IMG/VR virus record: IMGVR_UViG_3300050132_000504
Span: 114,102-178,101 of that record
From: a virus
DNA: 64,000 bases
Direction: 5' to 3' (one strand)
Below, one piece after another: positions 1,554 to 50,212 of this stretch. The notes under the pieces were generated by a model. It worked only from the letters and a program-made list of their open reading frames with translations, made no database searches and was not told the origin of the DNA. Every line of letters starts with the position of its first letter. The stretch's first letter is position 1. Made by a program: the position numbers and the translations under genes.

Positions 1554-1837
1554 TCGAGTTTGGGTGCGGATGGGTAGCGGGCGACGGGTTGATATTCCCG
1601 CCGGCGAAGTCAGGGCAGGAGCCGAAAGACGTTGACTGCAATGACTTCGTGGCTGACCAGTGCACGGGAAACCAAGAGTAGGCCAAACGCAAAGTAGATT
1701 CAGTTCGAAACGCAAAGTAGCCCAGACGGAAGTACCTTCGACACACAGCGGACGAGGCTTTGGCTGCACCCAATTAAGTGTTTTCACCTATTTTGCATTT
1801 TCCAAATTCATCGCATTCTCGGATCAAGGAGAAAAAC

Positions 1838-2410
1838 ATGATTTACGGTTGCAAATGGCCTAATGGCGACCTGTCGTTTGTGGTAGCGCCTGACAAAATC
1901 ACAGCAATCATAACTCTTGATGAAGAGGGTGGTGCGGGTGAAGAAGATCTATTTCAGATTCCAACCAATGTCGGTAACGGCATTGCAATCCATCTGAAAG
2001 CTGCTGATCCTTCAGTAACAGAAGGCGCGGCCTTCGTGTTGGAAGGCTTCAGCGAGGCACTGAGTGATATTCTCCGTGCTCAAGAGATTGTCACATACCG
2101 GGAGCCGGAGGAAAACGACATTCAATCGGAAGCTGTCTACCAACTTACCGTTCGTGACACCCTCGTTGACACCATCGCTGCAACCATTCTGTTCCGCGAT
2201 CCAGAAGAGCGACCCATCCTTGCATTCACCAAAGAAGCAACGGAGAAAGCTGAGGAAATATTCGCCCGGTACAAGGACGAATTTCACAGTTTCCATGTGG
2301 ACTTTGTTGTTCCTTCAGAGGAAGCAGTTATTGCAGGTTCCTGGCCAGATGCCATCAAGCTGATCGAGGCCAAGGCGGAAGAACTGCTGACCTGCGATCT
2401 GGATGCGTAG
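1838..2410 (+). CDS. hypothetical protein, 190 aa
   Basis: ATG at 1838 sits behind a strong CAAGGAGAAAAAC ribosome binding site. The acidic 190-residue product starts MIYGCKWPNGDLSFVV. No motif or family is recognised and no signal peptide or membrane segment is visible. It ends immediately before the tmRNA acceptor piece, so its transcript may run into the RNA gene. Confidence 0.65.
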   Translation: MIYGCKWPNGDLSFVVAPDKITAIITLDEEGGAGEEDLFQIPTNVGNGIAIHLKAADPSVTEGAAFVLEGFSEALSDILRAQEIVTYREPEENDIQSEAVYQLTVRDTLVDTIAATILFRDPEERPILAFTKEATEKAEEIFARYKDEFHSFHVDFVVPSEEAVIAGSWPDAIKLIEAKAEELLTCDLDA

Positions 2411-2528
2411 TTTCAAACAGATTGGGTACCGCATAGAGCTTCCCTGGCAACAGGGAGTGTAAAGCTTGTGAAACTACTGCAGTCGAAGACATTTTCGGAC
2501 CTCGGTTCAACTCCGAGCGGGTCCACCA
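2411..2528 (+). ncRNA. ssrA: permuted tmRNA, acceptor piece (alanine-tRNA-like 3' half)
   Basis: The piece ends GGGTCCACCA at 2519-2528. Just before it is a perfect T-arm, CTCGG TTCAACT CCGAG. The seven bases before the discriminator A (CGGGTCC) pair with GGGCCCG at 2602-2608, and the third pair is G-U, the G3-U70 identity element for alanine charging. This acceptor half lies upstream of the coding half, the circularly permuted order that is processed into two RNAs in alphaproteobacteria and some other groups. CCA is encoded. A CCCTG-GCAA-CAGGG hairpin lies upstream at about 2441-2456. The 5' end is uncertain. Confidence 0.85.
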
Positions 2529-2601
2529 TAAGCCCCTGAGAGGGATCGTACAGCCGTTAATGTCGGCAGTCATCGGTCATCCGACCTCAGAGGCTTATGT
2601 T
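2529..2601 (+). ncRNA. intervening segment of the permuted pre-tmRNA
   Basis: These 73 bases join the CCA end to the 5' end of the coding piece. Their ends are complementary (TAAGCC(C)CTGAG with CTCAG(A)GGCTTA), so they would extend the acceptor stem into a long hairpin. That is the expected shape of the removed loop in permuted tmRNA precursors. The processing sites are inferred from the mature acceptor-stem ends. Confidence 0.7.
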
Positions 2602-2828
2602 GGGCCCGTCACGGTTTCGACGGAAACAGTTGACGATGTGCAGACAAGCCGGATCGGTCGCCCACGTTACGGGAGGCCAGACGCATATATGCCAACACTG
2701 GGTATGTCGCCAGCATGACGTTTGAGGTCTTCGAACCGGCCACGGCCGCGGAGAACACCCTGGGCGTTCTTGCTGCTGTCTAGTCCGAAAGACTAGACGG
2801 GGCCAAGTCTGCTTGGCCTGGCAACAGA
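2602..2828 (+). ncRNA. ssrA: permuted tmRNA, coding piece with tag reading frame
   Basis: Begins GGGCCCGTCACGGTTTCGACGG, in which the GTTTCGACGG block is the conserved tmRNA 5' signature. A pseudoknot-like pairing GGTC(G)CCC with GGG(A)GGCC precedes the tag. An open frame from GCC at 2691 runs 30 codons to TAG at 2781-2783 and ends ENTLGVLAAV; the true resume codon could be a later one. The stop lies inside an 8-bp hairpin (GTCTAGTC / GACTAGAC), followed by a second hairpin (GGCCAAG / CTTGGCC). The LAAV end differs from the usual LAA or AVAA degradation signal. The 3' end of the mature piece is not known. Confidence 0.82.
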
Positions 2829-2829
2829 A

Positions 2830-2847
2830 GGGCGCCTTCGGGCGCCC
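2830..2847 (+). terminator. UUCG hairpin terminator after tmRNA
   Basis: GGGCGCC-TTCG-GGCGCCC is a perfect 7-bp stem with a UUCG tetraloop directly after the tmRNA coding piece. No long T-run follows, so termination efficiency is uncertain. The identical 18-base hairpin recurs at 3777-3794. Confidence 0.6.
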
Positions 2848-2904
2848 AGCAGGCCGGACGCGAATTATACAGAAACATTATGTGTTCTATATCACAATCG
2901 ATTC

Positions 2905-2924
2905 ATAGAGGCTTTCCCCTATCC
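2905..2924 (+). promoter_or_regulatory. recurrent 20-bp element, copy 1 (before response regulator)
   Basis: ATAGAGGCTTTCCCCTATCC lies 50 bases before the response regulator start. It matches five other intergenic copies with a common form near YTARGGGNTTYMCYYKAT. The right end CTATCC could be a -10-like part. Function as promoter is inferred from position only. Confidence 0.5.
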
Positions 2925-2973
2925 TCAAAGTGGCCATCTTCCGGCCTGATATTAGCTGAGAGGAAAAAGGCCA

Positions 2974-3597
2974 ATGATTCGATGTGTAATGGCAGACGAC
3001 CATGTTCTGGTCCGTGAAATTCTGTGCAAGATCATGGAACAGACTTCCACGATCCGAATCATCGGGGATCATGGAGATGCGCGCGAAGCAGCAGAACATG
3101 CTGTCGACCAGAAGGTCGATGTTCTCATCCTCGATGTGAATATCCCAGGCGCTGATCCATTTGAAGCGGCTCGATGGGCCAAGTCTTCTCACTTTCCGTT
3201 GAAAGTGATGTTCCTCACCGGATCGACTGAAGAAGAGCACATTCTCAATGCGATCGAAGCCGGCGCTTCCGCGTACATGACAAAGACGTGCGGTTTCGAT
3301 GAACTGCTACAAGCAATCACAAGGGTTCACCGCGGCGATTCCTATCTTCCCATCCTGCCCAAGTTCACGGGCCAAGGACACTCTGCCGGCTTCCATCGGC
3401 TGTCTCCTCGGCAGAATGAGGTTCTGAAGATGCTCGCCGAGGGAAACAGTGTCAAGGAAATCTCCATCCTCCTCGGTTTGAGTGCAAAGACCGTGGAGGT
3501 ACACAAATCGACCATGATGGAGAAACTTGGGATCCACAATAAAGTTCAACTCGTCATGTACGCGGTACGCCACAAGCTGGTCGCCGTCAGTGTCTGA
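2974..3597 (+). CDS. NarL/FixJ-type response regulator
   Basis: ATG at 2974 follows GAGAGGAAAAAGGCC. Residues 1-120 form a receiver domain: acidic pair in MADDHVLVRE, phosphate-acceptor Asp in LILDVNIPGADP (about residue 51), FLTGS and the conserved Lys in YMTKT. Residues 140-205 are a LuxR-type helix-turn-helix (LSPRQNEVLKMLAEGNSVKEI ... KTVEVHKS). 207 aa is normal for the family. No histidine kinase is nearby, so it may answer host kinases or small phosphodonors, or act on phage promoters. A copy of the recurrent 20-bp element and the tmRNA lie just upstream. Confidence 0.9.
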   Translation: MIRCVMADDHVLVREILCKIMEQTSTIRIIGDHGDAREAAEHAVDQKVDVLILDVNIPGADPFEAARWAKSSHFPLKVMFLTGSTEEEHILNAIEAGASAYMTKTCGFDELLQAITRVHRGDSYLPILPKFTGQGHSAGFHRLSPRQNEVLKMLAEGNSVKEISILLGLSAKTVEVHKSTMMEKLGIHNKVQLVMYAVRHKLVAVSV

Positions 3598-11044: not shown

Positions 11045-11325
11045 AGAACACAATCGCTGTTACCGTTGGGTTGCGTTATCGCTTTCAGGACTTTGAAATC
11101 GGAACCATCCTGGAGTGCAAAGGCAGCTTCTACATCAAGACCACGGGCAAGTATCCGCTGGTCGATCTAACGACTGGGGTGAGCCTTCACTACGCCCTGG
11201 TCGAGAAGATGGAATTCTCTCTGCTGAACATGGGCTCGCGGTTGACGATCACAATCGTCAACAAGCAGAGGCTACGTCTTCGCAACAAGTACAAGCGAGT
11301 CAAGAGATCGGTGGCAATCCCTTGA
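11041..11325 (+). CDS. hypothetical protein between PRTRC B and ThiF, 94 aa
   Basis: ATGA overlap with the end of protein B. The basic, beta-rich product (MKNTIAVTVGLRYRFQDF ... KYKRVKRSVAIP) is unrecognised. In many PRTRC cassettes this slot is held by protein A, a JAB/Mov34-type peptidase. No HxH...D JAB motif is visible here, so A appears to be missing or replaced. Confidence 0.6.
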   Translation: MKNTIAVTVGLRYRFQDFEIGTILECKGSFYIKTTGKYPLVDLTTGVSLHYALVEKMEFSLLNMGSRLTITIVNKQRLRLRNKYKRVKRSVAIP

Positions 11326-12149
11326 ACCACAAGCTGGATCACAGATGCTCACGGACCCGCGTCGCAGTGGTGGGATGTGGAGGGACAGGTAGTGCGCTGG
11401 CCGGCGGCTTGCCGTACATCAACCAGTCCCTCCTTGCCGAGGGACAGCCAGGTCTCAATGTCATCTTCGTCGATGGCGATCGCATCTCCTCCACCAATTG
11501 TGTAAGGCAGCCTTTCTCCCAGTCGGAGATCGGCCTGTACAAGTCACTGGTTATTGCCAACAGGCTGAACCTCTTCTGGGGACTGAAATGGAACGCCTCC
11601 ACTGGGCACTTCACAGAGAAGACAGATGGGGTTGTAGACATCCTGATCACCTGTGTGGATACGCGGGCGGCCAGGCTGGCCATCAGCCGGTCTCCAGCCT
11701 TCAAGAAGACGCTCTACTGGCTGGACATCGGGAACAATGCCGACAACGGCCAGTTCGTTCTGGGCCAGCCCCGGAACCGGCGCAATCAGCATGCCAAGTA
11801 CCGTCTGCTTACGGTCGCGGAACTCTACCCGGAGATCATCGATCCCAGACAGGACGGCGAGGACACGCTGCCCTCCTGCAGCTCCGTCGAGGCGTTGAAA
11901 CGACAGGAGCCCTTTGTGAACCAGGTGCTGGCCAATCACGCGCTCGCTTTGCTGGCGCGGCTGTTCAGGCACCGCGAGGTTTCCTATCAAGGAGGCTTCG
12001 TCAACCTCGCCACCGGCCAGATGGCGCCTATACCGGTGACCCAGTGCGAACGCAAGAGGAAACATGCTGCAAGAGATTCTGTTTCGCCAGCTCGACCCGG
12101 CGGAAGAGGCCGATTTCCGCAAGTACGCTCAGGAGAACGATCCGCCTGA
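11322..12149 (+). CDS. PRTRC system ThiF-family (E1-like adenylating) protein
   Basis: TTG at 11322 overlaps the previous TGA (TTGA). The Rossmann motif VAVVGCGGTGSALA is near residue 20, followed by VIFVDGDRISSTNCVRQPF, the Asp of VDGD and the Arg of the adenylating site. ITCVDTRAAR and PSCSSVEALKRQEPFVNQVL follow; the Cys in PSCS is the likely thioester Cys. E1-like ThiF proteins adenylate the C-terminal Gly of a ubiquitin-like partner, here most likely protein C. About 275 aa. The last 28 codons overlap the next gene. Confidence 0.85.
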   Translation: MNHKLDHRCSRTRVAVVGCGGTGSALAGGLPYINQSLLAEGQPGLNVIFVDGDRISSTNCVRQPFSQSEIGLYKSLVIANRLNLFWGLKWNASTGHFTEKTDGVVDILITCVDTRAARLAISRSPAFKKTLYWLDIGNNADNGQFVLGQPRNRRNQHAKYRLLTVAELYPEIIDPRQDGEDTLPSCSSVEALKRQEPFVNQVLANHALALLARLFRHREVSYQGGFVNLATGQMAPIPVTQCERKRKHAARDSVSPARPGGRGRFPQVRSGERSA

Positions 12150-13626: not shown

Positions 13627-13961
13627 TGAGCTTGAATGCAGCACTGAACGCTACCATCGCGTTGATTGAGAACCGGCCGGCGCAGTTCCGGGAAATGCTG
13701 CGCGAACCGACATCGGATGTGAAGAACATCTCGCCGGTGTACAGCCGCATGATCCGCTCTCTGGACTTCTATGCGGCCACAAAGATCCGTATCGCCCTGA
13801 TGGCAGCCTTGCATATGCAACCGACAGAGGAACAGCTCACTGCGTGTCCGGACTACACGAAAGCAACGCGCGCCGATTTCGAGCGGAGCTTCTTCGACGG
13901 CGTGACCGCTGTTGAAAAGGTCTTTGAAGGCATTCTCAACATGCTGGAGGAAAAAGAATGA
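13626..13961 (+). CDS. hypothetical protein, 111 aa
   Basis: ATG at 13626 overlaps the preceding TGA. Helical product (MSLNAALNATIALIENRPAQ) with no recognised family. Its end overlaps the deformylase start (ATGA). Confidence 0.6.
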   Translation: MSLNAALNATIALIENRPAQFREMLREPTSDVKNISPVYSRMIRSLDFYAATKIRIALMAALHMQPTEEQLTACPDYTKATRADFERSFFDGVTAVEKVFEGILNMLEEKE

Positions 13962-14479
13962 CCGCAATCTGCGAATATCCGGACGGCGTAATTCTCAAGA
14001 CCTGCGAACCAGTTGATGCTGAGTTCGGCGAGGGTCTCACAAATCTGATCGGCGACATGAAGGAAGCTTGCCTCTCCTTCCGCGGACAGGGCCTGGCCGC
14101 CAATCAGATCGGCGTCTTGAAGCGGGTCATCATCTACCAGGACAGCCAGGGACAGATGCAGTCCCTGACCAATCCCGAGATCATTGAGTTCGGTTCCGAA
14201 ACATCAGCGGCCGCGGAGGGTTGCTTGAGCCTGCCCGGCTTGCAGGTCAAGGTCACACGTCCAACGGAGATCACCGTCACCGGGCTGACCGAAGACTTTC
14301 AACCGATCACTATGGTCGCCGAGGGCCTGGAAGCACGAGTCATCCAGCATGAGATCGACCATCTCAACGGCATCTTGATCGTCGATCACCTGGGTAAGCT
14401 GAATCGGAAGATGACCCTTGACAAGTGGATGAAGAAGACGATTCAGTTCCGCCGCCATGAACGGAAACTGGCGGCATGA
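13958..14479 (+). CDS. def: peptide deformylase
   Basis: 173 aa with all three family motifs: GQGLAANQIG (motif 1), EGCLSLPG (motif 2, Cys as metal ligand) and QHEIDHLNG (motif 3, HExDH with two His ligands and catalytic Glu). It removes the N-formyl group from nascent proteins. Phage-encoded deformylases are known, for example in marine phages, where they are thought to speed processing of phage or organelle-type proteins. Start overlaps the preceding stop and its own stop overlaps the RNase H gene. Confidence 0.95.
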   Translation: MTAICEYPDGVILKTCEPVDAEFGEGLTNLIGDMKEACLSFRGQGLAANQIGVLKRVIIYQDSQGQMQSLTNPEIIEFGSETSAAAEGCLSLPGLQVKVTRPTEITVTGLTEDFQPITMVAEGLEARVIQHEIDHLNGILIVDHLGKLNRKMTLDKWMKKTIQFRRHERKLAA

Positions 14480-28605: not shown

Positions 28606-31482
28606 GTGTCAATGAAGGGAAGCATCGTGAATCAAATCGAGGTCAATCGGTACTTCGCCAAGGGTGAAGATCCGTATACCGCCATCAAGTGGGAAGAGCG
28701 CACCGCTCGGATCACCAACTTCAAAGGTGAAGTGATCTTCGAGCAGAAGGGCGTGCGCGTTCCCGAGAGCTGGTCGGTGACCGCAACCAACATCGTGGTC
28801 AGCAAGTATTTCTACGGGAAGCTTGAAACCGCCGAGCGCGAGACTGGCGTTGATCAGCTTGTTCGCCGCGTTGTGAAGACCATCACCGCTGCTGGTATTG
28901 CCCAGGGCTATTTCGACAACGAGAACGCCGAGATCTTCGCCAATGAGCTGGCGTTCCTGCTCCTCAATCAGTACGGTGCATTCAATTCTCCGGTGTGGTT
29001 CAACGTGGGTTGTGAGCAATACGAGCCCAATGCCCAAGCAGGAAGCTGGCACTGGGGTCCTATGTACCCGGATAGCACTCTCATGGCCACTGTCCATGGT
29101 GCGACCGGTTACAAGAATCCTCAATGCTCGGCCTGCTTCATCAACTCCGTCGGAGATTCGATGGAAGAGATCATGGCCTTGGCCAGGACCGAGGCTCTTC
29201 TGTTCAAGTTTGGCTCCGGGACCGGGACCAACTTCAGTCCTCTGCGGTCCAGCAAGGAGTCGGTATCAGGCGGCGGTGTCGCCAGCGGCCCACTGTCCTT
29301 TATGAAGGGCCTGGACGCTTTCGCCGGCGTGATCAAGTCAGGCGGCAAGACGCGGCGTGCAGCCAAGATGGCCATCCTGGACATCGAGCATCCCGACATC
29401 GTGGACTTCATCGAGTGCAAGCTGCTGGAGGACAAGAAGGCCCAGGCGCTGATGCGCGAAGGCTATGACGGAACGAGCGGGCCGGACAGTCCGGCGTACG
29501 CTTCGGTGTTCTATCAGAATGCCAACAACTCGGTGCGCGTGAGCGATCAATTCATGTACGCGGTCGAAAAGGACCTCAACTTCTGCACATTGACCGTCAA
29601 AACCAGAGAAGAGGTCGAAAACTACCGCGCGCGCGACCTGATGCACAGAATCGCCCAGGCCACATGGGAGTGTGGCGATCCTGGAATGCAGTTCGATGAC
29701 ACCATCAACAAGTGGCACACCTGCAAGGAGAGCGGCCGCATCAACGCCTCGAATCCCTGCTCCGAATACCTCTTTTTGGACGATTCGGCCTGCAATCTGG
29801 CTTCGCTGAATCTGTTGAAGTTCCTCAGGAACGGCGTTTTCGATGTCAAGGCATTCGAGCAGGCAGTGACTTTGTTCACGATCGCGCAGGACATTCTGGT
29901 CGATCTGTCGGGGTATCCGACTGAGCGCATCGCAAAGAACTCGCATGACTACAGGCCTTTGGGGCTAGGATATGCCAACCTTGGCGCGCTTCTGATGGCC
30001 CTCGGCCTGCCCTATGACTCCGATGAAGGCCGCAGCTATGCCGCGGCGATCACCGCGATCATGACAGGACGGTCCTACGCCACCTCGGCTTTCCTGGCTG
30101 AGAATCTGGCACCTCTGCAGTCGGCTACAGGCTTGAGGTCAGGAGACACAGGGGCTTGCCCCGGTTGGTTCAGCAACAAGGAGTCCTTCCTGGACGTGAT
30201 CCGGATGCACAACGAGGCCCTGGATCATATCGATCGCAGCACCATTCCGAACGAGCTGTTCAGTGCAGCGGTGTCCAACTGGCGGACTGCCTACGATCAG
30301 GGCTTCATTTACGGCTACCGCAATGCCCAAGTGTCGGTCCTGGCGCCCACCGGCACCATCGGGTTCCTCATGGACTGCGATACCACAGGCATTGAACCTG
30401 AGCTGGCTTTGGTCAAGTACAAAAAGTTGGTCGGCGGTGGACAGCTCAAGATCGTCAACGAGACCGTTACCCAGGCACTGGAAAAGCTTGGCTACGACCC
30501 TCAGAAGATCGACGATTTCATCGTCTACATCGACAAGTTCGGGTGCCTGGAAGGAACCACGCTGAAGGCTGAACACATGGCTGTCTTCGACACGGCTTTC
30601 AAGCCGACCAAGGGCGAGCGATTCATTCAATACATGGGCCACGTCAAGATGATGGCGGCCACGCAGCCCTTTCTTTCCGGCGCAATCTCGAAGACCGTGA
30701 ACATGCCTGCCACAGCAACCGTCGAGGAGATCGAGGATGCTTACATGCAGGCCTGGAAGCTGGGCCTGAAGGCTGTTGCAATCTACCGCGATGGCTCGAA
30801 GTCCAACCAGGTGCTGGTGACCAGCAAGGAAAACAAGAAGGCCGAGACAGTTCAGGACATTCTGAACGAGCTCGATGCCAAGGCTGCTGCTGAAGCAACT
30901 CTGGATGATCCGAATGCGCCGCCGCGCGCTGTGCGCCATCGTCTGCCGGATACTCGGCCGGCCATGACCCACAAGTTCGCCATCGCTGGACATGAGGGTT
31001 ACCTGACGGTCGGACTCTACGAGCACGGCCAGCCTGGTGAGATCTTCATTGCCATGGCCAAGGAAGGCTCGACCATCTCCGGCTTCATGGACTCGTTTGC
31101 CCTGGTGTTCTCGATTGCACTCCAGCATGGCGTGCCCTTGGAGACGCTGGTCGGAAAGCTGGCTCACACCCGGTTTGAACCTAGCGGATGGACTGGTAAT
31201 CCCGAGATCGGCTATGCGAAGTCCATCATGGACTACGTTGCCCGATGGCTGGAACATCGGTTTCTCAAGCCGCATCAGGGCAAGCTGTTCCCTGAGCATC
31301 CGATCCCGGAGCTGGTCATCGAGGACGAAGCCCCTCGGCCTACCAGCGGCGCAGTGCAGGCGTTGTCAGCTGTCATGAGTATGACCGACGCGCCGGCGTG
31401 CCAAGTTTGTGGCTGCATTATGGTCCGCAATGGGGCTTGTTATAAATGTTTGGAATGTGGATCAAGTAGCGGATGCTCATAG
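28606..31482 (+). CDS. nrdJ: class II (adenosylcobalamin-dependent) ribonucleotide reductase
   Basis: GTG 28606 or ATG 28612, both served by GGAGGGTAGG; 958 aa. Signature blocks: FNSPVWFNVGC; NPQCSACFINSV (redox Cys, about 171); FGSGTGTNFSPLR; the radical loop NPCSEYLFLDDSACNLASLN (about 381-400); APTGTIGFLMDCDTTGIEP. A zinc-ribbon tail follows (CQVCGCIMVRNGACYKCLEC, about 933-952). No small radical subunit is nearby, consistent with B12 chemistry. It converts ribonucleotides to deoxyribonucleotides. An HNH gene is inserted directly behind it. Confidence 0.92.
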   Translation: MSMKGSIVNQIEVNRYFAKGEDPYTAIKWEERTARITNFKGEVIFEQKGVRVPESWSVTATNIVVSKYFYGKLETAERETGVDQLVRRVVKTITAAGIAQGYFDNENAEIFANELAFLLLNQYGAFNSPVWFNVGCEQYEPNAQAGSWHWGPMYPDSTLMATVHGATGYKNPQCSACFINSVGDSMEEIMALARTEALLFKFGSGTGTNFSPLRSSKESVSGGGVASGPLSFMKGLDAFAGVIKSGGKTRRAAKMAILDIEHPDIVDFIECKLLEDKKAQALMREGYDGTSGPDSPAYASVFYQNANNSVRVSDQFMYAVEKDLNFCTLTVKTREEVENYRARDLMHRIAQATWECGDPGMQFDDTINKWHTCKESGRINASNPCSEYLFLDDSACNLASLNLLKFLRNGVFDVKAFEQAVTLFTIAQDILVDLSGYPTERIAKNSHDYRPLGLGYANLGALLMALGLPYDSDEGRSYAAAITAIMTGRSYATSAFLAENLAPLQSATGLRSGDTGACPGWFSNKESFLDVIRMHNEALDHIDRSTIPNELFSAAVSNWRTAYDQGFIYGYRNAQVSVLAPTGTIGFLMDCDTTGIEPELALVKYKKLVGGGQLKIVNETVTQALEKLGYDPQKIDDFIVYIDKFGCLEGTTLKAEHMAVFDTAFKPTKGERFIQYMGHVKMMAATQPFLSGAISKTVNMPATATVEEIEDAYMQAWKLGLKAVAIYRDGSKSNQVLVTSKENKKAETVQDILNELDAKAAAEATLDDPNAPPRAVRHRLPDTRPAMTHKFAIAGHEGYLTVGLYEHGQPGEIFIAMAKEGSTISGFMDSFALVFSIALQHGVPLETLVGKLAHTRFEPSGWTGNPEIGYAKSIMDYVARWLEHRFLKPHQGKLFPEHPIPELVIEDEAPRPTSGAVQALSAVMSMTDAPACQVCGCIMVRNGACYKCLECGSSSGCS

Positions 31483-47688: not shown

Positions 47689-48255
47689 ATGGCATCATCC
47701 CAAGTCATTGATCTTTCAGGAAGACGGTTTGGCAAACTTGTTGTTCAACCTGAACATGAAAACAGAACTGTATCCGGCAGAACAGCAATGTACTGGCGAT
47801 GCATCTGTGATTGTGGAACAGAACTTTGGCTTCCTCGAAAGAAGCTCACGAGCGGTCATCGCCAAAGCTGTAAGTGTCAATGGGGAACTCCCTTGGAATA
47901 TGGTGAAGCCGATTTTAATGCCCGTTGGAAAGACTATCGAACAAGTGCTACGAAGCGTGGCATCAAGTGGATGCTTACCCAAGAGGAGTTTCGTGCTGTA
48001 GGTATTCAGCCTTGTCATTACTGCGGTGAAGCTGCCGTTGAACGCAAGCCTTCTAAGAAGTTCAATGGAGGGTTTGTATTTAATGGCATCGACAGAATTG
48101 ACAGTTCGGGTCCGTATCAACGAGATAACTGTGTGTCGTGTTGTACTCGATGCAACCGCATGAAGAGCGATCTGTCTTATGAAGAGTTTGTTTCAACCTG
48201 TAAGAAGGTTGCAGAAAGGTTTGCAATAAACAATGCCTCCCAAAGCAACAGTTAA
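47689..48255 (+). CDS. HNH homing endonuclease
   Basis: 188 aa, starting right at the previous stop. One zinc module (FGKLVVQ ... YWRCICDCGTELW ... SCKC) and the HNH core CHYCGEAAVERKPS, FNGIDRIDSSGPY, NCVSCCTRCNRMKSDL. It looks like a recent relative of 45189, since PLEYGEADFNARW matches PYGNADFNARW there. AT-rich. Overlaps the AAA+ gene start by 23 bases. Confidence 0.85.
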   Translation: MASSQVIDLSGRRFGKLVVQPEHENRTVSGRTAMYWRCICDCGTELWLPRKKLTSGHRQSCKCQWGTPLEYGEADFNARWKDYRTSATKRGIKWMLTQEEFRAVGIQPCHYCGEAAVERKPSKKFNGGFVFNGIDRIDSSGPYQRDNCVSCCTRCNRMKSDLSYEEFVSTCKKVAERFAINNASQSNS

Positions 48256-50212
48256 AAGCCCTCGGGTAGTGCAACGCGGCGTGCCTGACTTTGTCAGGCT
48301 CATCACGGATGACTACCAGGCGCAGATTTCCCACGTTTTCATCCTGCACGGCAACATCTACGACTTCGTAGATAATGCCGGCAATGACCTGCCGATCAGG
48401 AAGGTGTTGGCCTCCTGTTACGACGACAACATCCAGAAGAGTCTCAATCCGAATGCAGTCTCGGACAACAAGGAAGCCGGCATTCAGTCGGTCCGGCGTG
48501 TATCGCAGAAGACTCGCATTATGGCCTTCTACAACACGTCCACTGGCCTGGATTTTCCCGATCCGAAGAGCAAGACGATGTGGATCGAGACCTTCAAGCA
48601 GGTGCTTGGCGAAGACGTGATCGAAGACATGGGCAAGACCTACTTCGAGCCCAAAAGTCCGGAAGCGGCAATGAAGCTGCTCAATGACTGGTTCGCTATC
48701 TCGAAGAAGATCCTGACCGACAACAAGATCAAGCTCACACAGGACCAGGCTTTGCAGCGGGAGCTGTGTCTGACCCTGGTGTTCACTGATTCCGACAGCC
48801 TATTCCCGCGCGGCGACATCGCCAACCTGGGATGCGACCGTGGCGCCATTGTGAACATCCGGAACTGGGCCCAGGACAAAGCGATTGGAGACCGGAATCG
48901 GATCATCTTGATGACCCGGCACCTGTCCGATATTCATGAGTCGATCCGCGGCGAGCTGGCTGTCAGCCATATCGTCCGGAAGCCTAACCTGCAGGACCGG
49001 TTGGAATGGCTCAACAACTTCGAGACCAACATCAAGAACCGGGTTGTAAAGGACGGTGCGCTGACCATCGGCGAGAACACCAATGTAACCGGGATCGACC
49101 TGGCCTGTGATTTCAGCATTCAGGAGTTTGCTCTTCAGTCGGCGGGAATGAATCGGCGCCAGATCAAGGACGTCATCCTGAACTCCTGGCGCAACCAGGT
49201 GCCGGTGGACTTTCCATTGGTTCAGGAACGCAAGAAGCGCGCGCTTGAGGACGAGTACGGCGGCATGATCGACATCAAGGAGCCGTCTTTCGGCTTTGAG
49301 TTGATCGGAGGCCATGACCATTTCAAGGACTTTTGCCAGTGGAAGATCATCAAGCCGCTTCGGTCGGGGAACAAGAAGCTCTGCGCCCGCGGCGCCCTGA
49401 TGACTGGGCCGCCCGGGACCGGCAAGACGATGGCTGCCTGGGCTCTGGCCAAAGAGGCAGGCGTCAACTTCATCATTGTTGACTTCGGCAAGGTCTTCGG
49501 TGGTCTGGTTGGGGAGACGGAATCCAATACTCGCAAGCTGATCGAAGCGATCGAAGCTGCCGCCCCGTGCGTGGTCTTCGGCGACGAACTGGATTCGGTG
49601 TTCTCCAGCGGACGACAGTCGGCAGGCGACTCGGGCACCTCAGCTCGTGTCTTCAACTCATTGATGACCTGGCTGTCGGACCCCGGCCGCGTCGGCAAGG
49701 TCGTGTTCCTGGCGGCGACCAACCGCCCCGAACTGCTGGATGCTGCGTTGATCCGCGCAGGACGTATGGACGTCAAGATCCCGATGCTTCCGCCTGCCAA
49801 GGGGGATGCCAAGGGGCGCTGGGCCATCCTGAAGTCGCAGACCCACAAGCACAAGATTGTCCTGGCCGATGATCTGATTGCTTCCAAGAATAACCCGCAA
49901 GCTGGCCTTGGCCGGCTGCTCTATGACCCGAAGCGGATCTGGACGGGCGCCGAGATGGAGCAGCTCCTTCAGGCAGCCTTCGATGAAACGATCAGGGCCG
50001 AGCGCAAGGCAGACGAGAAGGATGATCTGCGGGTTTTTCTCGCGGACTGGGATGCAGCCTTCGACAACATCATCCCCAACACCGATGAGGTGGAGCGGAT
50101 GACGAATCTGGCGCTGCTCTACGTCGACAACCTTCGCTATGTGCCGGCTGAATGGCGCGAAGCCGCGAGGGACAAGAAGAACCTCAGGGAAGTCTGCGGG
50201 TTGGACAAGTAA
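48233..50212 (+). CDS. AAA+ ATPase, Ycf46-like
   Basis: ATG at 48233; 659 aa. The N-terminal 300 residues (VFILHGNIYDFVDNAGNDLP, LTLVFTDSDSLFPRGD) match the non-motor part of Ycf46-type ATPases. The AAA+ module has GPPGTGKTMAAWALA (Walker A, about 391), VVFGDELDSVFSSG (Walker B, about 445), LAATNRPELLDAALIRAGRMD (sensor 1 and Arg finger). In bacteria and plastids Ycf46 genes occur near DUF1257 and DUF2997 genes, both present upstream. Likely a remodelling ATPase; its target is unknown. Confidence 0.8.
   Translation: MPPKATVKSPRVVQRGVPDFVRLITDDYQAQISHVFILHGNIYDFVDNAGNDLPIRKVLASCYDDNIQKSLNPNAVSDNKEAGIQSVRRVSQKTRIMAFYNTSTGLDFPDPKSKTMWIETFKQVLGEDVIEDMGKTYFEPKSPEAAMKLLNDWFAISKKILTDNKIKLTQDQALQRELCLTLVFTDSDSLFPRGDIANLGCDRGAIVNIRNWAQDKAIGDRNRIILMTRHLSDIHESIRGELAVSHIVRKPNLQDRLEWLNNFETNIKNRVVKDGALTIGENTNVTGIDLACDFSIQEFALQSAGMNRRQIKDVILNSWRNQVPVDFPLVQERKKRALEDEYGGMIDIKEPSFGFELIGGHDHFKDFCQWKIIKPLRSGNKKLCARGALMTGPPGTGKTMAAWALAKEAGVNFIIVDFGKVFGGLVGETESNTRKLIEAIEAAAPCVVFGDELDSVFSSGRQSAGDSGTSARVFNSLMTWLSDPGRVGKVVFLAATNRPELLDAALIRAGRMDVKIPMLPPAKGDAKGRWAILKSQTHKHKIVLADDLIASKNNPQAGLGRLLYDPKRIWTGAEMEQLLQAAFDETIRAERKADEKDDLRVFLADWDAAFDNIIPNTDEVERMTNLALLYVDNLRYVPAEWREAARDKKNLREVCGLDK

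Follow-up and report, generated by a model that had tools for sequence, protein, structure and literature searches.

Do phages that encode a transfer-messenger RNA (tmRNA) want the stalled ribosome back without proteolysis? This testable question is raised by a gene in a 64,000-nucleotide stretch of DNA, hereafter the window, which corresponds to bases 114102-178101 of a myovirus-like virus record of 178,101 bases (G000). A preliminary description of the window had proposed a circularly permuted ssrA with a long tag, the last residue of which could spare tagged proteins from ClpXP. Here we establish what the gene is, to whom it belongs and which tag it encodes, and weigh what that tag might do.

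The locus encodes a circularly permuted tmRNA

ARAGORN called a permuted tmRNA with the 30-residue tag ANTGYVASMTFEVFEPATAAENTLGVLAAV at 2436-2874, and neither a tRNA nor a further tmRNA elsewhere in the window. In agreement, cmscan matched Rfam family RF04321 (tmRNA_permuted) at 2464-2718 with 67.7 bits (cut-off 47, E 7e-11), which places the gene in that family, with a score that is low compared with those of hosts (best scores of 111-166 bits in 103 of the 105 alphaproteobacterial genomes over the cut-off). Two further tmRNA models scored too low: the beta_tmRNA model (RF01850) aligned end to end at 2409-2823, over all 331 positions, with 44.8 bits against a cut-off of 84, and the alpha model (RF01849) matched in part, with 23.8 bits where 50 are required. 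Because the beta score falls short despite the full span, we call the tmRNA beta-like and do not file it as a member of RF01850. No Rfam family besides tmRNA reached its cut-off in the window. With the 5' piece starting at ~2409 by the beta model and the conserved motif GCAACAGAA ending at 2829, the whole gene at ~2409-2829 is confirmed as a circularly permuted (two-piece) tmRNA (Table 1).

The architecture agrees with the preliminary description: an acceptor half with T-arm, encoded CCA and G3-U70 pair, readable in the sequence and in the RF04321 alignment, lies 5' of the coding half, and the 73-nt loop between them has complementary ends that pair in the predicted fold. Sequence, ARAGORN and RF04321 agree on this order, and both features looked for as signs of alanylation, G3-U70 and the CCA end, can be read from the sequence. 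The Ala-Ala degron end is absent from the tag, which ends LAAV in the ARAGORN call; that end is typical of tmRNA tags without defining them, as Mycoplasma tags lack it (PMC3985003).

Table 1. Parts of the tmRNA locus, in window coordinates
Feature	Position	Strand	Evidence
5' part of acceptor piece, with hairpin CCCTGGCAACAGGG	2409..2463	+	RF01850 match start; fold
Helix 2, acceptor-side strand; partner 2621-2649	2464..2496	+	RF04321 pairs; cofold
T-arm	2501..2517	+	RF04321 alignment; sequence
Acceptor 3' strand CGGGUCC	2518..2524	+	RF04321 alignment; sequence
Acceptor part, ending in A73 and then encoded CCA (2526-2528)	2501..2528	+	RF04321 alignment; sequence
Intervening loop, 73 nt, complementary ends, presumably removed in processing	2529..2601	+	fold, -28.4 kcal/mol
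Acceptor 5' strand GGGCCCG, the 5' end of the coding piece; G3-U70 with 2518-2524	2602..2608	+	sequence; RF04321
tRNA-like domain signature GGTTTCGACGG	2613..2623	+	sequence; RF04321 alignment
Helix 2, coding-side strand	2621..2649	+	cofold with 2464-2496
Tag frame ANTGYVASMTFEVFEPATAAENTLGVLAAV: GCC 2691, 30 codons, TAG 2781-2783	2691..2783	+	ARAGORN; resume-site matrix; beta_tmRNA alignment
8-bp hairpin GUCUAGUC-CGAAA-GACUAGAC, holding last Val codon and stop	2778..2798	+	fold
Hairpin GGCCAAG/CUUGGCC, aligned to beta_tmRNA 3' terminal hairpin	2801..2818	+	RF01850; fold
GCAACAGAA motif near 3' end	2821..2829	+	motif comparison, viral tmRNAs
Hairpin GGGCGCC-UUCG-GGCGCCC, no T run on + strand	2830..2847	+	fold; terminator scan

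Motifs resembling GCAACAGAA follow the tag in 18 of the 31 distinct long-tag and 26 of the 70 distinct short-tag viral tmRNAs surveyed below. At 1700-3000, no promoter-like site was found with the sigma-70 consensus, and the single terminator-like site lies on the opposite strand. Downstream of the tmRNA, the first gene to be recognised encodes a LuxR-type response regulator with receiver and GerE domains (2974-3597) and has the orientation of the tmRNA.

The gene is the phage's own

The tmRNA gene lies 116 kb into its record. Among 20 proteins scanned in the rest of that record, tail sheath, baseplate wedge, portal, head proteins and an integrase were matched, the terminase large subunit gave a weak match (E 1.7e-6), and PHROG matches were obtained for ten proteins and not for the other ten. 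The window itself encodes a class II ribonucleotide reductase, a PolA-family protein, a clamp and a ligase, together with a UvsX/RecA-like protein, a primase and a RecD2-like helicase. Moreover, a second record of 124 kb (G001, locus L042) carries the same tmRNA gene in the same context, with 92-97% identity to the window over the longer aligned segments, 72-74% over two short ones, and some gaps. On the strength of the phage structural and replication genes and of this second record, we regard the gene as the phage's own, as had been considered beforehand; as far as the flanks show, it is not the native ssrA of a host chromosome. A host chromosomal ssrA in a mis-assembled or mis-called virus contig was considered, given that the record has no completeness estimate and an integrase at one end, and was rejected on the phage gene content and G001: the gene sits deep among phage structural and replication genes, and a non-identical record repeats its context, which makes such an artefact exceedingly improbable.

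Further features of the record were noted. The integrase (L002:1-1563) is at its very end, which may point to a temperate phage. Window positions 11115-12149 and 13958-14479 encode a ThiF-family protein and a peptide deformylase, respectively, and the class II (B12) ribonucleotide reductase (28606-31482) is 45% identical to one in LR745208.1, a 485-kb uncultured phage in which an RF04321 match is absent. In G001, a 1.3-kb insert with two tRNA genes (G001:C1:64846-66182) has no counterpart at the matching window position, 4495, and the window has a tmRNA without a tRNA. Relatives beyond G001 did not emerge: DNA searches returned no match for the tmRNA in phages and plasmids or for the surrounding 12 kb in phages, tblastn of the tag against phages gave none, and a degenerate pattern for the exact tag retrieved G001 alone.

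The two halves of the RNA have changed together

The two records differ unevenly along the gene. Over ~2678-2874 they show three base differences (98-99% identity), against 92-97% in most neighbouring segments, and the acceptor half, the loop and helix 2 are strongly different. The loop of G001 is 66 nt long and of another sequence, with ends that also pair (-24.2 kcal/mol in the fold). The region 1773-2680 is mosaic, the upstream gene and the acceptor half being replaced or very divergent in G001. Cognate halves nevertheless form a helix 2 duplex of -19.3 kcal/mol in the window and -20.6 kcal/mol in G001, compared with -12.6 and -14.3 kcal/mol when the halves are swapped, and in each record four of 1,000 mononucleotide shuffles of the coding strand reached the cognate energy. 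Pairing of the halves has therefore been kept by evolution in these two sequences; since matched halves pair better than swapped ones despite the divergence, the comparison, of two sequences, suggests that selection acts on the RNA in its two-piece form.

The tag frame starts at GCC 2691

As an open frame of 30 codons is by itself weak evidence of a tag, we scored resume sites with a weight matrix covering -8 to +6, built from 95 other distinct viral sites, at 140 positions (2640-2779). GCC 2691 ranked first with 9.24 bits and GCA 2683 second with -2.86; the training sites had a minimum of 1.69 and a median of 15.06 bits, so that GCC 2691 is a clear resume site, though below the training median. 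It has an A at -4, the base reported to be critical in E. coli (PMC2481249), its frame closes with a stop, and it lines up with the consensus AUGCcAAc in the RF01850 beta_tmRNA alignment. ARAGORN, the matrix and the alignment thus converge on the tag proposed earlier, 30 codons from GCC 2691 ending ENTLGVLAAV. This tag is about three times the usual length (the commonest is 10; PMC11915505), lacks an AN[D/E] start and has Val as its last residue instead of a double Ala.

Alternatively, the real tag could be the 11 codons from GCA 2683 (AYMPTLGMSPA), of ordinary length and also with A at -4, and the 30-codon frame be there by chance; both frames are intact in G001. This short frame was rejected on its resume-site score and is very unlikely to be the tag: the beta_tmRNA alignment prefers GCC 2691, residue 2 of the short peptide is not Asn, and no such ending occurs among the tags observed.

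Viral tmRNAs include a class of long tags

Contrary to the earlier expectation, permuted ssrA genes are not unusual in phages: PMC9004378 reports the form in phages, and ARAGORN called a permuted tmRNA in 175 of 182 viral stretches that we found by pattern. These stretches (85 + 42 + 55; of the 85, 80 were among the matches listed) derive from one pattern family, comprising T-arm, TCCACCA, GTTTCGACG and a loop of 29-121, and are therefore a sample and no census. Together with the window they give 176 permuted tmRNAs with 104 distinct tags, in counts that retain doubtful ARAGORN tags (L060, L105, L149/L177, L044, L160 and L167). Seventy distinct tags have at most 17 residues and 31 have 22-33, and three of 20-21 residues were assigned to neither class. 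An AN[D/E] start within the first few residues is present in 57 of the 70 short tags and in one of the 31 long ones. The short tags end in AA in 66 of 70 cases; 17 of the long tags do so and nine end in -AV.

For hosts, a pattern scan of genome contigs yielded 13 stretches, a poor set for which family searches were substituted. Of 120 genomes from the order to which Chitinasiproducens palmae belongs (Burkholderiales), five exceeded the cut-off, one locus (L218) being one-piece by ARAGORN; of 115 from the class of Aureimonas (Alphaproteobacteria), 105 did. The main host set comprises 90 loci from 89 of these 105 genomes, of which ARAGORN called 78 as permuted and the other 12 not. The host tags end in AA in 77 of 78 cases and never in -AV; the sole exception to AA, L330, is a doubtful 742-nt call, and among the 77, four tags exceed 15 residues (20-25). 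Seven extra loci outside this set (L211-L217) all end in AA. In one alphaproteobacterial genome, a second, weaker permuted tmRNA (L312, G220:C5; 84 bits, tag ANDNSPVAMAA) is possibly of prophage origin. The difference in -AV ends, nine of 31 long viral tags against none of 77 host loci, has a Fisher P value of 5e-6 that is only indicative, as related records are not independent.

The nine -AV tags form two classes, one made up of the window and L042, the other of seven distinct GEVTV...FAV/LAV tags at nine loci (L010, L026, L039, L056, L059, L092, L143, L163 and L166). The second class resembles the window in its long tag (29-31 residues), its final -AV and its lack of an AN[D/E] start, but the rest of the tag shows no resemblance by eye, a terminator-like hairpin with a T run stands where the window has its 2830-2847 hairpin without one, and the class is separate from the window in a phylogeny of poor resolution. 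On that tree of 111 tmRNAs, with 16 of 108 inner branches starred and four host rows that passed the motif filter, -AV needs four changes, of which the starred branches force one; two origins are likely, though not proven. Among scanned proteins of the FAV loci, a phage-type exonuclease was found in L166 and L039, and several more have metabolic functions (Trp halogenase, TctC receptor, UDP-glucose dehydrogenase, TauE, radical SAM). Because several of these proteins are metabolic, the phage origin of the class, on which the -AV comparison leans, rests mostly on the IMG/VR label and is less certain. Another long-tag locus, L014, carries terminase and portal genes.

In the literature searched, mostly outside subscription journals and available in part, we found no description of long or -AV phage tags. 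The viral tags of 22-33 residues, nine of 31 ending in -AV, would amount to a natural experiment separating ribosome rescue from proteolysis. Tentatively, large phages may more than once have swapped the bacterial tag for a long one without AN[D/E] start and Ala-Ala end, so that, in infected cells, stalled ribosomes would be released and their products would escape or delay ClpXP or meet another fate, a proposal that we consider somewhat unlikely as it stands.

The tag may act as a slower degron

Removal of the loop by host RNases, charging by AlaRS, delivery by SmpB and resumption of translation on the tag are established tmRNA biology. Accepting these steps here, the precursor would be transcribed as one RNA, from which RNase P, tRNase Z and further enzymes of the host would cut out the 73-nt loop, leaving acceptor and coding pieces held together by helix 2 and the acceptor stem. 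The molecule would be charged by host AlaRS via G3-U70, and host SmpB would deliver it to stalled ribosomes. Use of the host's SmpB is suggested by our failure to find smpB in the phage record; the protein was found in none of eight long-tag records (G000, G001 and six others), in a search that was positive for 10 of 14 control genomes. Translation would then resume at GCC 2691, adding Ala and 30 encoded residues before the stop at TAG 2781. As the tag has no AN[D/E] start and exposes AAV-COO- instead of AA-COO-, ClpXP would be expected to degrade the tagged products more slowly than host-tagged ones. The phage might benefit in that ribosome recycling would be maintained in infection, with tagging partly uncoupled from fast proteolysis. 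We lean slightly towards this reading as a whole, namely a functional, beta-like phage two-piece tmRNA that relies on the host's SmpB and AlaRS and marks proteins with a slower degron.

Published reporters bear on the last step. Variants of the ssrA tag ending in -AAV are still degraded, more slowly than those ending in -LAA (PMC9382460, PMC9097571). In B. thuringiensis, GFP-AAV has a fluorescence half-life of ~15 min, and the GFP signal relative to untagged protein was 3.5-fold less for -AAV and 33-fold less for -LAA (PMC5732988); a change of the last Ala raises the KM for ClpXP (PMC7652416). The tag thus probably gives slow degradation. Since the -AAV reporters are still degraded, the earlier suggestion, in which the extra Val might protect tagged proteins from ClpXP, goes too far. 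No ClpP was found in G000 or G001, and of six long-tag records searched only that of L158 had one. That record (345 kb; 27-residue tag ending ALAA) encodes a ClpP matched with 258 bits (L340, G240:C1:231626-232168).

The tmRNA could also work with a long tag and a final Val that serve no particular purpose: the RNA would be kept for rescue and the peptide would drift, since release of the ribosome suffices. Between the window and G001, the tag frame has one substitution in 93 bases, and it changes T to I; with a single, residue-changing difference to the sole close relative, selection at the peptide level cannot be shown, and the tag peptide itself may be under none. The Val codon and the stop lie inside an 8-bp stem, so the codon may be there for RNA structure. 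Tag function was also not critical for phage propagation in an E. coli assay (PMC2481249). The FAV class, the -AV class with most sequences, speaks on both sides: its dN/dS is near or above 1 in several pairs though below 1 in most, yet its members differ in length by whole codons, and each of the nine loci has FAV or LAV followed by TAA. The absence of an AN[D/E] start that long tags share likewise argues against drift, and we hold a tag without a role to be rather unlikely.

Alternatively, a protease other than ClpXP could read the tag as a degron, be it Lon, FtsH, Tsp or a phage AAA protein or adaptor. There is precedent in the long Mycoplasma tags, which end AFA and are recognised by Lon (PMC9382460, PMC3985003), and a 659-aa AAA-family ATPase to which no role has been assigned is encoded at window positions 48233-50212. 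No ATP-dependent protease, however, was recognised among ten scanned proteins near the tmRNA, four of which had no Pfam match, and G000 yielded no ClpP; we consider this reading improbable. Finally, the RNA might rescue no ribosomes and serve as a decoy or inhibitor that titrates SmpB or blocks the host tmRNA. The tmRNA of mycobacteriophage DS6A has little beyond the tRNA-like domain and a similar molecule inhibits tmRNA (PMC4131195, PMC11915505), and the phage record lacks a recognised smpB. Against such a role, which we think highly improbable, the window tmRNA has the parts needed for tagging, and nothing else in the locus is as well conserved as its tag half.

Comparison with known tmRNAs

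The permuted form in phages is already known: two-piece molecules make up 53 of 133 unique phage tmRNA structures (PMC9004378), and bacteriophages contribute 79 sequences, counting every form, to the current tmRNA database (PMC11915505). In six named phage regions, picked from longer match lists, ARAGORN called a permuted tmRNA in five and RF04321 matched all six. Xanthomonas phages XacN1, X1 and Rb1, Alcaligenes phage QDWS595 and Acinetobacter phage BUCT628 have a permuted ssrA, as does the window, but their tags have 10-14 residues, four ending AA and that of X1 YA, against 30 residues and LAAV. XacN1 also carries a GOLLD RNA (L335:2842-3255, 227 bits), which follows its permuted tmRNA at a distance of about 1 kb, and neither RNA is among the listed features of that stretch. 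Melnitz likewise has a two-piece phage tmRNA, accompanied there by a glutamine riboswitch (PMC9004378); in the window, tmRNA is the sole Rfam family at cut-off. Compared with the RF04321 and RF01850 families, the window shares the tRNA-like domain, order of halves, G3-U70, CCA, resume context and 3' hairpin, and differs in its lower scores (67.7 and 44.8 bits) and its 30-codon tag ending LAAV.

What makes the locus of interest is less its permuted form than its tag and the viral tag set to which that belongs. Bacterial tmRNA tags have a highly conserved ALAA end, Mycoplasma excepted (PMC3985003). The extended Mycoplasma tag, read by Lon, is long and without an LAA end like that of the window, but is bacterial and ends AFA (PMC9382460, PMC3985003). 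The tag encoded in the window ends in AAV, a triplet chosen for reporters when a weaker degron is wanted (PMC9382460): engineered ssrA(AAV) reporters carry it by design on a short tag, and the phage tmRNA encodes it at the end of a long one.
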